Shown: positions 5,099 to 15,526 of the stretch, one piece after another
How positions within the stretch are numbered: the stretch's first letter is position 1
How the letters are laid out: every line of letters begins with the position of its first letter
DNA from: Acidobacteria bacterium SCN 69-37
Lineage (GTDB): Bacteria > Acidobacteriota > Vicinamibacteria > Vicinamibacterales > SCN-69-37
DNA length: 64,000 nucleotides
Direction of reading: 5' to 3'
NCBI GenBank assembly: GCA_001724025.1
Contig: MEDJ01000020.1
Location: forward strand, 186,001-250,000
Notes under the pieces: model-generated
Told to the model about the DNA's origin: nothing
The model's database searches: none
What the model saw: only the letters and a program-made list of their open reading frames with translations
Position numbers and translations under genes: made by a program

Positions 5099-5175
5099 CG
5101 GGATGTAGCGCAGCCTGGTAGCGCACTTGACTGGGGGTCAAGGGGTCGCTGGTTCGAATCCAGTCATCCCGACCA
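5099..5175 (+). tRNA. tRNA-Pro (GGG anticodon)
   Basis: A complete 77-base cloverleaf. The acceptor stem CGGGATG/CATCCCG is perfect. The D arm is GCGC/GCGC, and the anticodon stem CTTGA/TCAAG encloses the loop CTGGGGG with GGG at the anticodon position. The TTCGAAT T-loop is present and CCA is encoded. The 3' part is duplicated at 15478-15526, so this gene is the attachment site of the integrated element and was kept intact by it. Confidence 0.96.
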
Positions 5176-5176
5176 A
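5128..5176. repeat. Attachment site attL (49-bp direct repeat)
   Basis: It is identical over 49 bases to 15478-15526. It begins in the anticodon stem of tRNA-Pro (TGACTGGGGG) and ends one base after the encoded CCA. Recombination between the two copies would excise the element and leave one intact tRNA gene. Confidence 0.93.
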
Positions 5177-5186
5177 ATCACTCGCT

Positions 5187-5205
5187 GGGGTAACTCAGGG
5201 GTAAC
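5187..5205 (+). promoter_or_regulatory. Candidate integrase arm-binding sites, left end
   Basis: Two GGGGTAAC octamers (5187-5194 and 5198-5205) are spaced 11 bp start to start, 10 bp inside attL. The same octamer pair with the same spacing occurs inside the right end at 15328-15346. This fits arm-type sites of a tyrosine integrase placed on one helical face. Confidence 0.6.
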
Positions 5206-5241
5206 AAGATCGGGCCGGCCACCACAGCCGGCCCTTCGTGT

Positions 5242-5481
5242 CTACATCACGACTTCAAAGAGAATGTCGTCGAGATCCTCGGACGAGATTACGCCCTTCT
5301 CGTGCAGCCGCTCGAATAGCCGGGCGACAGCAACGCTCATACGGTGCCGGCGCATGTGGTCGTCGGCGCTGCTGGCCGGGCCCGTCCTCGGTTCCGTGAT
5401 CGTGTAATAGACGCGCTGGTAGACCGTCTCCGCGTCGCCCTTGTACGTCTTCTCGCGCAGGATGTCTTCTCTCTGTGCCAT
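5242..5481 (-). CDS. Hypothetical protein, last gene of the element
   Basis: A 79-residue protein of unknown function. It is mixed charged, with MAQREDILREKTYKGDAETV at the N-terminus and an acidic C-terminus (SSEDLDDILFEVVM). No domain is recognised. It lies 19 bases downstream of the prohead protease gene and is probably read in the same transcript, just inside attL. A head accessory or regulatory role is possible but not shown. Confidence 0.6.
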   Translation of the reverse strand: MAQREDILREKTYKGDAETVYQRVYYTITEPRTGPASSADDHMRRHRMSVAVARLFERLHEKGVISSEDLDDILFEVVM

Positions 5482-5500
5482 GGTGGGGAGCCTCCGACGG

Positions 5501-6058
5501 TTACGCTACCAGACGTCGGCGCAGCCAGTCGATGCGCTGCCCATGCTCGCGTTGGAACGCCTGCACGCTGCGCTGGGCCACGCTGGCGTCCGTGGACTCG
5601 TACGCGGGGAACGTGACCAGCGACACCTCGCGGATGCGCATGTCGGACACGTAGCGGACGAGCCCATCGGCCCGCTGCTCGAACCGGTCGCCGCCCGGCC
5701 GGACGACGCCAAACGTGAACGACATGCCGGTGACATCGCCACGCTTCACGGACTCCAGGATGTCCCTGCCGACCGTGGTGTCCGGGGGCACGATGCGGAC
5801 GTGCAGTCCGTCGTTGCGCTTCTCGAGTGCCAGCGTGCCAGCCGACAGCCGGCCGATGATCTTGCCCGGCTCGTGATCGACGAGGGCCCGGACGTCGATG
5901 CCCTCGGTGAACGTGCGGTCGACGGCCGACGGTTCGATGATTTCCCGGAAGCCGCCCAGGTCTTCCGACAGGCTGCCGAAGACGATGGCGCGTCCGGTGA
6001 TGGTGGTGCCGTCGTGCGCGATGCGCGACGCGCGGCGTTCAAGGTCGAGAGTCAGCAT
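5501..6058 (-). CDS. HK97-family prohead maturation protease
   Basis: This serine protease (peptidase U35 type) trims capsid proteins during head maturation. The 185 residues contain TGRAIVFGSLSEDLGGF at the N-terminus, the catalytic His in DHEPGK (residue 62), and the catalytic Ser in TGMSFTFGV (residue 113), followed by REVSLVTFPAYEST. Length and motif order match the family. Its ATG at 6058 overlaps the end of the zinc-ribbon gene by 7 bases. Unusually it is encoded after the portal and well after the capsid, whereas HK97-type modules normally run portal-protease-capsid. Confidence 0.92.
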   Translation of the reverse strand: MLTLDLERRASRIAHDGTTITGRAIVFGSLSEDLGGFREIIEPSAVDRTFTEGIDVRALVDHEPGKIIGRLSAGTLALEKRNDGLHVRIVPPDTTVGRDILESVKRGDVTGMSFTFGVVRPGGDRFEQRADGLVRYVSDMRIREVSLVTFPAYESTDASVAQRSVQAFQREHGQRIDWLRRRLVA

Positions 6059-13346: not shown

Positions 13347-13394
13347 AACGCGATAGTCGCGCGCCGTGCCCGGACGATATGAGGGGATGTCCGA

Positions 13395-14027
13395 CTATTT
13401 CACGGCGATGCGGGAGATTGCGGTACGCAGACTGTCGACGCTGCGCCCTCGACCGAAGTCCCGATGTAGGAAGCGCGCGATCTCGGCGTGGCTGCTGTGC
13501 GGTTTCTTCTTCTGGTAGGCTGCCACGGCCCGCGCGAGTTCTGGTGAGTCTGCCCGCCTGCGCGCTTCGACGCCCTTCTTCTGGTACGCCACGACCTGCG
13601 CTCGACGCTTCTGGCCGATGCGAACCACGTCCCATCGCTTCGCGGTCGCCTCGGCGTGTAGTCGACCGATGGCCATTGCCTGCGCGGCGGCGAGGTTGAC
13701 GAACGCGCGGGCGTCGGGAGATAGGTCCGCCACGACAAGCAGTCGACGCAACACGTCGCGGGCGCCTTCGATACGCTCGATCAGCGTGGCGGCGTACCAT
13801 GCGCCCGAACCGTACTCCTGTTGTTTGGCCTCGGTATTCCAGTCGAGGACGCGTCGGCAGGTGGCTTCGAGATCGGCGATGGTGTCGACGAAGGACGACG
13901 CCCGGACGTGTGCCTTCACATCGGACAGCATCTCAACGCCTTCTTCACGCGACTGTCCTTGGAGCGAGTAGGTCGTCTGCTCCGTGCGGGTGATGCCGTC
14001 GCTTTGCACGCGCGTGGACTTGGCCAT
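13395..14027 (-). CDS. Unknown protein with C-terminal HTH-like region, between int and alpA
   Basis: A 210-residue protein that I do not recognise. The N-terminal two thirds is helical (VDTIADLEATCRRVLDWN, WYAATLIERIEGARDVLRRL). The basic C-terminal part carries VAYQKK twice, once as VVAYQKKGVEARRR and once as AVAAYQKKKPHSSHAEIARF, ending in DSLRTAISRIAV, which reads like a helix-turn-helix. It starts 3 bases after the integrase stop and is probably co-transcribed with it. In satellites this slot often holds a regulator. Confidence 0.65.
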   Translation of the reverse strand: MAKSTRVQSDGITRTEQTTYSLQGQSREEGVEMLSDVKAHVRASSFVDTIADLEATCRRVLDWNTEAKQQEYGSGAWYAATLIERIEGARDVLRRLLVVADLSPDARAFVNLAAAQAMAIGRLHAEATAKRWDVVRIGQKRRAQVVAYQKKGVEARRRADSPELARAVAAYQKKKPHSSHAEIARFLHRDFGRGRSVDSLRTAISRIAVK

Positions 14028-14030
14028 GTG

Positions 14031-15290
14031 CTACGCCCCTTTCCGCGTCATCGGCACGACGTTGTCGGCCGGCTTCTCGTCGAGGATCGCCCGCAGGCGC
14101 CGCGCCCACGTCGCCAGCGCGGCCTGCTTCTGCGGGTCGTAGTTGAATCGGTCGTAGATCTTCGTGGCGCGTGGGCGGCCGTCGACGTGGTTCAACACGA
14201 GACTGATGTGCGTCGGGTCGACGCCGGCCTCGGCCATCTTCGTGGCGGCCGTGCGCCGCAGGTCGTGGGCCCGGAAGTCGAACGCCTCGACCTTCGGATC
14301 GGTCTTCTGGAGTGCAGCCAGCACGTGCTTGGCGATGCGCCGGCCGGCCTGCTTCAAGTCGGTCATGGTGCCCTTGCCGATGCGGGCGGGGAACACGCGC
14401 TCGTCGACGTTGCCCTCGTCGTCGACGACGCGCGGGACCAGCGCCAGCGCCTCGTGAGCCAGATCGGACAACCAGACACGATGCTCGGTCTTGTTCTTCG
14501 TGATCGTCGGCGGCAGCGTGAGCCAGTCCCCGCTGATGTCAGACCAGCGTATGGCGACGAGTTCGCCGCCACGCTGGGCCGTGATGAGCCGGAGCCGGAC
14601 CAGCGCCCGCATGGCCGGCCGTTCGGCGTCGGTCGCCTTCCAGACGAGCCGGACCTCGTCATCGGTCAGGACGCGGTCGCGTGAGGCTTCGACGCCGGGC
14701 TTCTTCAGGAGGGCGGCGGGGTTGGCGTCGATCCAGTCCTGCTGAATCCCGAAGTTCAGCATCTTGCGGACCAGCGCCAGGCAGCGGTTGGCGGTGATCG
14801 GGGAGCCGCGGTCGGCGATGGCCTCGATGAGCGTCCGCACGTCGCGCCGGGTGATATCTTTCGCCTTGCGATGTCGCCATTTTGGCAGGACTTCGGCGTT
14901 GAACATGCGGTCGTCGTCCTTCCAGCTCCGCTTGTGCCGTTTCGCGTGTTTTTCGAGGTAGGTCTTCACCAGATCGGCGACGGTCTCGCCCTGCGTGGCC
15001 TGTTGGCGTTTGGCGCGTTTTTCGGCGCCGGCATCCGTGCCCGTCGTCGCGGCATCCCGGCTGGCCTCATACGCCTTCTCGCGGGCTTTGGCGAGGGAGA
15101 ACTTGTCGACGGTCCCGATGGTGTGGCGCCGGAGCTTGCCGTCGACGCGGTAGTGGACCGACCAGGACTTGTGTCCGGACTCGGTGATCCGCAGCGCGAG
15201 GCCCTTGATGACCGTGTCGAAGACCTCGACGCGCTTGCCCGGCTCGGGTTGCAGGGTCTCGACGTCGCGCGCGGTCAGCTTTTTCTGCAT
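14031..15290 (-). CDS. Tyrosine recombinase integrase (P4/DUF4102 type)
   Basis: A 419-residue integrase that inserts and excises the element at tRNA-Pro. The N-terminal DUF4102 arm-binding domain covers about residues 1-95 (LTARDVETLQPEPGKRVEVF, GLALRITESGHKSW). A core-binding domain follows. The catalytic residues are visible: Arg240 in TAQRGGEL, His342 and Arg345 in AHDLRRTA, His368 in LNHVDG, and Tyr379 in KIYDRF. It is intact. It sits beside attR, at the end away from the complete tRNA gene, and reads into the element. Confidence 0.96.
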   Translation of the reverse strand: MQKKLTARDVETLQPEPGKRVEVFDTVIKGLALRITESGHKSWSVHYRVDGKLRRHTIGTVDKFSLAKAREKAYEASRDAATTGTDAGAEKRAKRQQATQGETVADLVKTYLEKHAKRHKRSWKDDDRMFNAEVLPKWRHRKAKDITRRDVRTLIEAIADRGSPITANRCLALVRKMLNFGIQQDWIDANPAALLKKPGVEASRDRVLTDDEVRLVWKATDAERPAMRALVRLRLITAQRGGELVAIRWSDISGDWLTLPPTITKNKTEHRVWLSDLAHEALALVPRVVDDEGNVDERVFPARIGKGTMTDLKQAGRRIAKHVLAALQKTDPKVEAFDFRAHDLRRTAATKMAEAGVDPTHISLVLNHVDGRPRATKIYDRFNYDPQKQAALATWARRLRAILDEKPADNVVPMTRKGA

Positions 15291-15327
15291 GTGTGGTGTC
15301 CCTTCACATTAGGTCACGGATTCCGCC

Positions 15328-15346
15328 GGGGTAACACCGGGGTAAC
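15328..15346 (+). promoter_or_regulatory. Candidate integrase arm-binding sites, right end
   Basis: GGGGTAAC occurs at 15328-15335 and 15339-15346, again 11 bp apart, within the int leader and 132 bp inside attR. Orientation and spacing match the left pair at 5187-5205. In the circular form the two pairs would flank the attachment core. Confidence 0.6.
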
Positions 15347-15477
15347 ACTTTGGCCTGCGCTCGGCTGAAATGCGCCGCAAGGGGATGATAGCAGAAATAG
15401 CCGGTAAACGTAGGCGATTGTGAGGGTTACGGCTGAATGGTGAAACGCGACGAAGTCGGGCGAAAGGCGACGATCTG

Positions 15478-15526
15478 TGACTGGGGGTCAAGGGGTCGCT
15501 GGTTCGAATCCAGTCATCCCGACCAA
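15478..15526. repeat. Attachment site attR (49-bp direct repeat)
   Basis: An exact copy of 5128-5176, carrying only the anticodon-arm to CCA part of tRNA-Pro. It cannot form a tRNA because the acceptor 5' strand and D arm are missing. It marks the right end of the element. No gene is seen from here to 15616. Confidence 0.93.

Follow-up and report, generated by a model that had tools for sequence, protein, structure and literature searches.

A tail-less, capsid-encoding element in tRNA-Pro of Acidobacteria bacterium SCN 69-37 as a probable phage satellite of a separate ~10.3-kb lineage

The 64,000-nucleotide stretch of DNA analyzed here (the window) carries an element of 10,350 bp that is site-specifically integrated in the tRNA-Pro(GGG) gene of Acidobacteria bacterium SCN 69-37. 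The element is bounded by two copies of an exact direct repeat spaced 10,350 bp apart, whose identity ends at 49 bp and not one base further and which is among the very few repeated 24-mer families of the window. All named genes of the element lie on the minus strand:

5099–5175, plus: tRNA-Pro(GGG), intact integration target (ARAGORN; Rfam)
5128–5176: attachment repeat, left copy, 49 bp, exact (repeat comparison)
5242–5481, minus: p79, annotated without a function, no family match
5501–6058, minus: HK97-type prohead protease (S78; PF04586, 2.8e-40; TIGR01543)
6052–6249, minus: 65-aa zinc-finger-like ORF (from sequence)
6246–6458, minus: 70-aa ribbon-helix-helix-like (RHH) DNA-binding protein, weak (E 0.01–0.07)
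6455–7663, minus: HK97 portal protein (PF04860, 9.4e-81)
7660–7845, minus: 61-aa treble-clef zinc-ribbon-like protein between capsid and portal genes (related ORF in relative L337)
7969–9342, minus: HK97 major capsid protein, MCP (PF05065; TIGR01554, 4e-43)
9431–11077, minus: terminase large subunit, TerL (phrog_9, 9e-121; PF20441)
11171–11518, minus: HNH endonuclease adjoining the terminase (phrog_144, 4e-27)
11628–12896, minus: RecA-fold ATPase, putative replication helicase (AAA_25, weak, 5.5e-5)
12893–13147, minus: 84-aa family-specific small protein (45–46% identical in relatives L183 and L082)
13140–13346, minus: AlpA excisionase/activator (PF05930, 3.5e-16)
13395–14027, minus: p210, no family match (41% over 94 aa in L082)
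14031–15290, minus: tyrosine integrase with arm-binding domain (PF00589; Arm-DNA-bind_3)
15478–15526: attachment repeat, right copy, 49 bp, exact (repeat comparison)

Profile matches recovered every gene that the preliminary description had read on one strand from the letters alone, i.e., the integrase, AlpA, RecA-fold ATPase, HNH, TerL, HK97 capsid, portal, and protease, and repeat comparison confirmed its attL/attR pair in tRNA-Pro. Six small ORFs were observed beyond that earlier list (p79, the zinc-finger-like, RHH-like, treble-clef-like, and 84-aa proteins, and p210). Pfam and PHROGs matched none of the six to a family of tail, connector, TerS, or lysis proteins and showed no recognizable gene of these kinds anywhere in the element, in agreement with the earlier statement that its 10.35 kb holds no tail, connector, or lysis gene; the coding density of 0.929 leaves no room for a tail module. 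The element encodes HK97 head genes (capsid, portal, and protease) and the TerL/HNH packaging genes, in the order TerL-MCP-portal-protease for the head and packaging block, and lacks recognizable tail and lysis genes. A longer in-frame ORF around the zinc-finger-like one (6052–6333) had no PHROG match, and the slot between protease and attachment site, filled by p79 here, holds a different small gene in L183. The p210 protein was considered as a member of the helical protein family encoded beside the integrase in relatives and was rejected upon comparison; the predicted model of that family (pLDDT 92) matches no known fold.

The gap between HNH and TerL is only ~93 bp and no TerS match was found in the element; TerL opens with MGxRGPxA at its N-terminus, which resembles the start of a TerS. 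As neither a connector nor TerS is detectable, head completion and DNA recognition would proceed via unrecognized small proteins, TerL itself, or a helper; the RHH-like protein could stand in for TerS. An Ad1/gp6-type head-tail adaptor is present in the relatives L188–L190 and L341. A stretch upstream of TerL that aligned among relatives was considered as a cos or packaging site, and no such claim is made because it overlaps their coding sequence.

The same block was absent from tRNA-Pro in related genomes, where the preliminary description had proposed to look for it, and five of them (G001, G002, G003, G006, and G008) keep the Der-MerR-tRNA-Pro neighborhood without the element. An acidobacterial host is plausible from a match to the ADOP permease (TIGR03434, 763 bits).

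Relatives were found in IMG/VR and metagenomes, where the TerL-MCP-portal-protease block occurs in about 33 contigs, excluding L343/L344 (distant portals) and L362–L364 (no family portal). Thirty-one family portals, including that of the focal element, form one clade of small elements (support 1.0, branch 0.73) with no phage inside, and no portal outside the family was found above 39% identity. The complete units (n = 9) measure 10.09–10.62 kb (mean 10,325 bp, SD 169 bp), and five different tRNA genes host the same plan, which also occurs in assemblies closed as circles. Besides the focal element these are:

L183: tRNA-Phe, 10,169 bp, same block, integrated
L336: tRNA-Leu, 10,624 bp, same block, integrated
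L337: tRNA-Pro(TGG), 10,222 bp, same block, integrated
L354: tRNA-Arg, 10,386 bp, same block, integrated
L342: 10,389 bp, contig with end repeats, carries the integrase
L358: 10,203 bp, contig with end repeats, carries the integrase
L189: 10,094 bp, contig with end repeats
L351: 10,489 bp, contig with end repeats

Contigs longer than 14 kb are rare in the family (1 of 33, the 24-kb contig on which L183 lies) and common among related portal contigs outside it (39 of 72; p = 8e-8). Purifying selection was evident in the Ka/Ks values of TerL (0.17), protease (0.22), portal (0.23), RecA (0.28), and MCP (0.33). The RecA-ATPase slot is occupied in relatives by primases, helicases, or an Erf protein. 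Among the matches listed for 89 non-core proteins from the focal element and 14 relatives (the best 25 of 78 PHROG families and 25 of 26 Pfam families), none belonged to a tail or lysis family. Tail or lysis genes in relatives, named beforehand as the observation that would speak for a deleted prophage, were not encountered in about 30 of them, nor were tail module remnants in the element or its relatives.

Residues 1–107 of the MCP form a conserved scaffold (delta)-like domain followed by the coat domain, and the N-terminus is helical in the predicted model (whole-model pLDDT 41). Comparison of two subgroups gave an unexpected mismatch, with the N-terminal ~107 residues ~64% identical and the shell domains only ~30%, and the shell therefore seems, from these sequences, to have been exchanged beneath a conserved scaffold. 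A tentative and rather doubtful extension is that the lineage may build an HK97-fold head of T=3 size dedicated to its ~10.3-kb genome, with size set by the N-terminal scaffold domain and genome length unchanged as the shell was swapped. Predicted genome sizes are 11.8 kb for T=3 and 18.0 kb for T=4 (PMC7762592).

Searches beyond the family revealed no close relative by portal or TerL in 396 genomes of the phylum and 162 of the order. A TerL search of genome contigs returned generic HK97-type proteins only (≤51% identical), and the nearest TerLs outside the family (L083, 58%; L084, 54%) are in 40–48 kb contigs. RecA-ATPase relatives in the phylum were partly beside phage genes and none accompanied the family portal/capsid block; a nucleotide search of phages had no match, and plasmid portal matches were ordinary (36%). 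No candidate helper phage was recognized in the host genome, where no second portal, HK97 capsid, or PhageMin_Tail protein was found; this counts against the satellite reading, as does the lack of a detectable connector or TerS.

Several known systems resemble the element in part. It shares with capsid-forming PICIs (cf-PICIs) an integrase with a specific attachment site, an AlpA-type regulator, HNH, TerL, HK97 capsid, protease, and portal, the lack of tails and lysis, and, as predicted here, tail borrowing. The claim that cf-PICIs carry exactly this set was not supported, as published descriptions of them include TerS and head-tail connectors (PMC10690885), whereas neither is detectable in the ~10.3-kb focal element with its TerL-MCP-portal-protease order, and it was accordingly not classed as a cf-PICI. 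Of the two earlier options, a satellite outside the known groups or a new related lineage, the likeness to capsid-forming satellites and the second option stand, but the cf-PICI gene set is not matched. The cf-PICIs come mainly from Enterobacteriaceae, Pasteurella, Morganellaceae, Lactobacilli, Enterococci, Bacillaceae, and Streptococci (PMC10803314). The Streptomyces satellites MulchRoom and MiniFlayer likewise bring head and packaging genes of their own but differ by a TerS-TerL-portal-scaffold-MCP order, a scaffold gene that stands separately, and long terminal repeats, and tblastn detected no similarity to family proteins. The Vibrio cf-PISP TG54, an episomal capsid-forming satellite, is circular, tail-less, and capsid-encoding without an ordinary integrase, a plan like that of L188–L190; it differs as a satellite-plasmid with parA, repA, head-tail adapter, closure, and terminases, is classed as cf-PICI by SatelliteFinder, and has similar elements only in Vibrio (PMC13230959). 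Mycobacterium candidate PICIs such as phiRv1/phiRv2 are also small islands with integrase and capsid genes, frequently located in tRNA genes, but are actinobacterial, defined only as integrase plus MCP (PMC10654092), and compared here by description. Phage HK97 is related through TerL (40% identical), portal (26%), and protease (25%), but is a full phage with TerS, connectors, and tails ordered TerS-TerL-portal-protease-MCP.

The element is probably an integrated, tail-less, capsid-encoding, helper-dependent phage satellite, one member of a separate lineage, and most likely functions like a capsid-forming satellite as predicted from its genes. The integrase and AlpA would excise it as a circle and the RecA-fold ATPase would replicate it; relatives have a primase, a helicase, or an annealing protein in that place. 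TerL/HNH would then load the element's DNA through its own portal into a small capsid of its own making. The tail, neck proteins, and lysis may come from a tailed phage that co-infects or is induced, such that the particle would combine a satellite head with a helper tail, and on entry the DNA would integrate in tRNA-Pro.

A canonical cf-PICI whose TerS and connector genes are too divergent for detection is rather unlikely: its integrase, AlpA, HNH, TerL, MCP, protease, and portal are all there and some relatives have the Ad1-type adaptor, but TerS and connectors were not found in the focal element, the gene order differs, and 10.3 kb compares with a 14-kb average (PMC10803314). The circular or circularly permuted ~10-kb genomes in viral collections, some without integrase (L188–L190), and the replication genes of several members would also suit a complete virus spreading without tail or helper. 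This is quite improbable, as HK97 heads with TerL and a portal should need a tail for DNA delivery, the matches listed included no recognizable gene for lysis, entry, or membrane fusion, and several members keep a head-tail adaptor that is sensible only with a tail.

Phage homologs of every head gene, and the 40–48 kb contigs carrying the closest non-family TerLs, could alternatively indicate an HK97-type prophage that lost its tails and lysis and is decaying in place. Such a derivative is highly unlikely given a ~31-member clade of the same order and size at different tRNA sites and in circular forms, intact frames under purifying selection, and no outside portal above 39% identity. The weak match of the MCP profile to the R. 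capsulatus GTA capsid raises a capsid domesticated by the host, gene-transfer-agent-like or as a nanocompartment. It is extremely improbable for an element found in one genome only, absent from genus and family relatives, with integrase, attachment sites, and TerL intact and mobile in relatives.

As a helper-dependent satellite, the element would widen the range of satellites that encode capsids and borrow tails, adding, in a probable acidobacterium, a lineage with a reduced, pared-down set of genes. The narrow size range around 10.3 kb together with the scaffold/shell mismatch makes testable the long-standing question of whether the HK97 delta (scaffold) domain sets capsid size, and a T=3 HK97-fold head, if true, would fill a gap noted among tailed-phage capsids (PMC7762592).

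Searches against Pfam, PHROGs, and NCBIfam together with a repeat check recovered, each in its place, every part of the satellite-like element that the preliminary description had proposed from the sequence alone. The 10,350-bp element is bounded by the following features (window positions):

5099-5175, tRNA-Pro(GGG)
5128-5176 and 15478-15526, exact direct repeat of 49 bp, the first copy beginning inside tRNA-Pro(GGG)

Its 14 ORFs, all on the minus strand, covered 93% of the interval and encoded an integrase, AlpA, an AAA_25 ATPase, HNH, the large terminase subunit (TerL), an HK97 capsid protein, portal, and S78 protease. 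The six small ORFs (p79, a 65-aa zinc finger, RHH, treble-clef, an 84-aa product, and p210) had no tail, connector, small terminase subunit (TerS), or lysis match. A 27-bp perfect duplication (10983-11009 and 11043-11069) in the early TerL codons doubles the peptide RGPRARVKA and is single copy in the sister element L183 and the IMG/VR contig L082.

The focal element is a mobile insertion. The Der-MerR-tRNA-Pro order was conserved in the same-genus genome G001 and four same-family genomes, and the att sequence matched at 100% identity in G001 and G008 and at about 87.5% in the remaining three; element proteins were absent from the DNA examined beyond att in these genomes. A second HK97 capsid, second portal, or PhageMin_Tail protein was not present in the host genome, and close relatives were absent by TerL from 162 genomes of the order and by portal from 396 genomes of the phylum. 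An ADOP permease one gene further out in the flank (TIGR03434, 763 bits) is consistent with the probable acidobacterial host suggested earlier. In window 17000-24200, 24-mers repeated between 17.0-17.1, 19.9-20.0, and 24.1 kb suggest several ADOP permease copies in series.

Querying IMG/VR with the TerL, portal, and ATPase sequences as well as a capsid profile identified about 33 contigs with a common TerL-major capsid protein (MCP)-portal-protease block, preceded where the contig was complete enough by HNH and usually an integrase and replication gene; the protease query brought no further members. Size averaged 10,325 bp (SD 169 bp) over the nine elements listed below.

Family elements with att repeats or repeated contig ends
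Focal, integrated in tRNA-Pro GGG, att repeats, 10,350 bp
L183, integrated in tRNA-Phe, att repeats, 10,169 bp
L336, integrated in tRNA-Leu, att repeats, 10,624 bp
L337, integrated in tRNA-Pro TGG, att repeats, 10,222 bp
L354, integrated in tRNA-Arg, att repeats, 10,386 bp
L342, repeated contig ends, interpreted as circle, 10,389 bp
L358, repeated contig ends, interpreted as circle, 10,203 bp
L189, repeated contig ends, interpreted as circle, 10,094 bp
L351, repeated contig ends, interpreted as circle, 10,489 bp

The circles L342 and L358 are apparent excised forms because they carry the integrase, and the end repeat of 123-127 bp, as an assembler trace of a closed circle, supports circularity and not the packaged state. 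Gene order was circularly permuted without end overlap in L188 and L190. The 13.5-kb contig L350, in which two copies of a 127-bp repeat are spaced by 10,712 bp and the replication modules are of two kinds, is possibly a chimera or two joined elements. Immediately next to the sister element, L183:1-6400 and L369 hold a further integrase together with a Mom-like gene and a TerL-like one (phrog_9, 3e-19), which probably represent another integrated element in tandem. The sister-element integrase is split by an apparent frameshift, genuine or an assembly error, at L081:204-1447 and in the same region of L183. Outside the family, L123 (10,589 bp, 127-bp end repeat) is a circular ~10.46-kb element with MCP-protease-portal-TerL order.

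The family is unlikely to be a broken prophage. In a portal tree of 127 sequences, the 31 family members grouped in a single clade that contained no phages (support 1.0; stem 0.73), and portal identity was at least 48% within the family and at most 39% to outside portals (L343/L344 set aside). One of 33 family contigs exceeded 14 kb compared to 39 of 72 other portal-search contigs (p = 8e-8; indicative, since the two lists were gathered differently), and this was the 24-kb contig holding the att-bounded L183 copy. Between the focal element and L183, head genes and ATPase had Ka/Ks values of 0.17-0.33, and internal stops were absent. Tail or lysis genes in relatives, named in the preliminary description as the sign of a deletion derivative of a full prophage, did not occur for 89 non-core proteins of the focal element and relatives among the families listed (the best 25 in each of two alignment scans), where the only extra morphogenesis gene, present in part of the family, encoded a head-tail adaptor of the gp6/Ad1 kind.

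The replication gene between the regulatory genes and HNH differs among members, being a RecA-fold ATPase in the focal element and L183 and elsewhere primase-helicases, Prim-Pol plus AAA_25, Erf annealing protein, or O-like initiators. MCP-portal-protease remain linked across two TerL types (type 1 in the focal element, L183 (80%), and L082 (78%); type 2 only about 26% identical). Most relatives encode an int-adjacent protein:

L342:3039-3632 and homologues in 13 relatives, ~200 aa, all-helical

Its confidently predicted helical fold (pLDDT 92) had no match in PDB or BFVD, and the protein is a family-specific signature; focal p210, in the same place, is unrelated to it. A sigma-70-like factor between the portal and protease genes of L342 (53-718; phrog_1740, 4e-17) may drive late genes.

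The first ~107 MCP residues were on average 64% identical between groups I and II compared to 30% for the coat domain, which averaged 61-71% within groups. Among phage capsids, 1,172 pairs whose coats had diverged to a similar degree averaged 26% identity at the N-terminus, and 0.1% reached 50%. The family side of this comparison is biased because L336 and later members were found by motifs from the N-terminus in question; L186 and L188-L190, found by portals, gave the same contrast (N-terminus 55-70% vs. coat 29-35%). By position and predicted helical structure, this region would be equivalent to the HK97 cleaved scaffold (delta) domain, and the simplest reading of the identities would be a shell domain exchanged beneath a conserved scaffold domain.

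Int/AlpA would excise the focal element, its own ATPase with host or helper proteins would replicate it, MCP with built-in scaffold, protease, and portal would form a self-made prohead, TerL/HNH would package the element, and a helper would supply neck, tail, and lysis. A published size relation gives 11.8 kb for T=3 and 18.0 kb for T=4 (PMC7762592); by it, a single 10.3-kb copy in a T=3 head fits best, and packaging as dimers or loose filling of a T=4 head is possible. The focal TerL, as do related TerLs of larger phage contigs, starts with MGxRGPxA, a motif of small terminase starts; this start or the RHH protein may substitute for TerS.

Capsid-forming PICIs (cf-PICIs) were described with TerS and connectors (PMC10690885); they average 14 kb, and acidobacteria are not among their listed hosts (PMC10803314). 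L188-L190, which lack an integrase, are similar in plan to an episomal cf-PISP of Vibrio (PMC13230959), and searches for sequence similarity between the family and MulchRoom or MiniFlayer returned none. The part of the literature covered contained no satellites with capsid and tail in acidobacteria. In contrast to cf-PICIs, neither connectors nor TerS were detected in the focal element, and it is therefore not filed among them; of the two options in the preliminary description, such a satellite outside the known groups or a new related lineage, the second fits. Our analysis indicates that the element very probably works in the cf-PICI manner.
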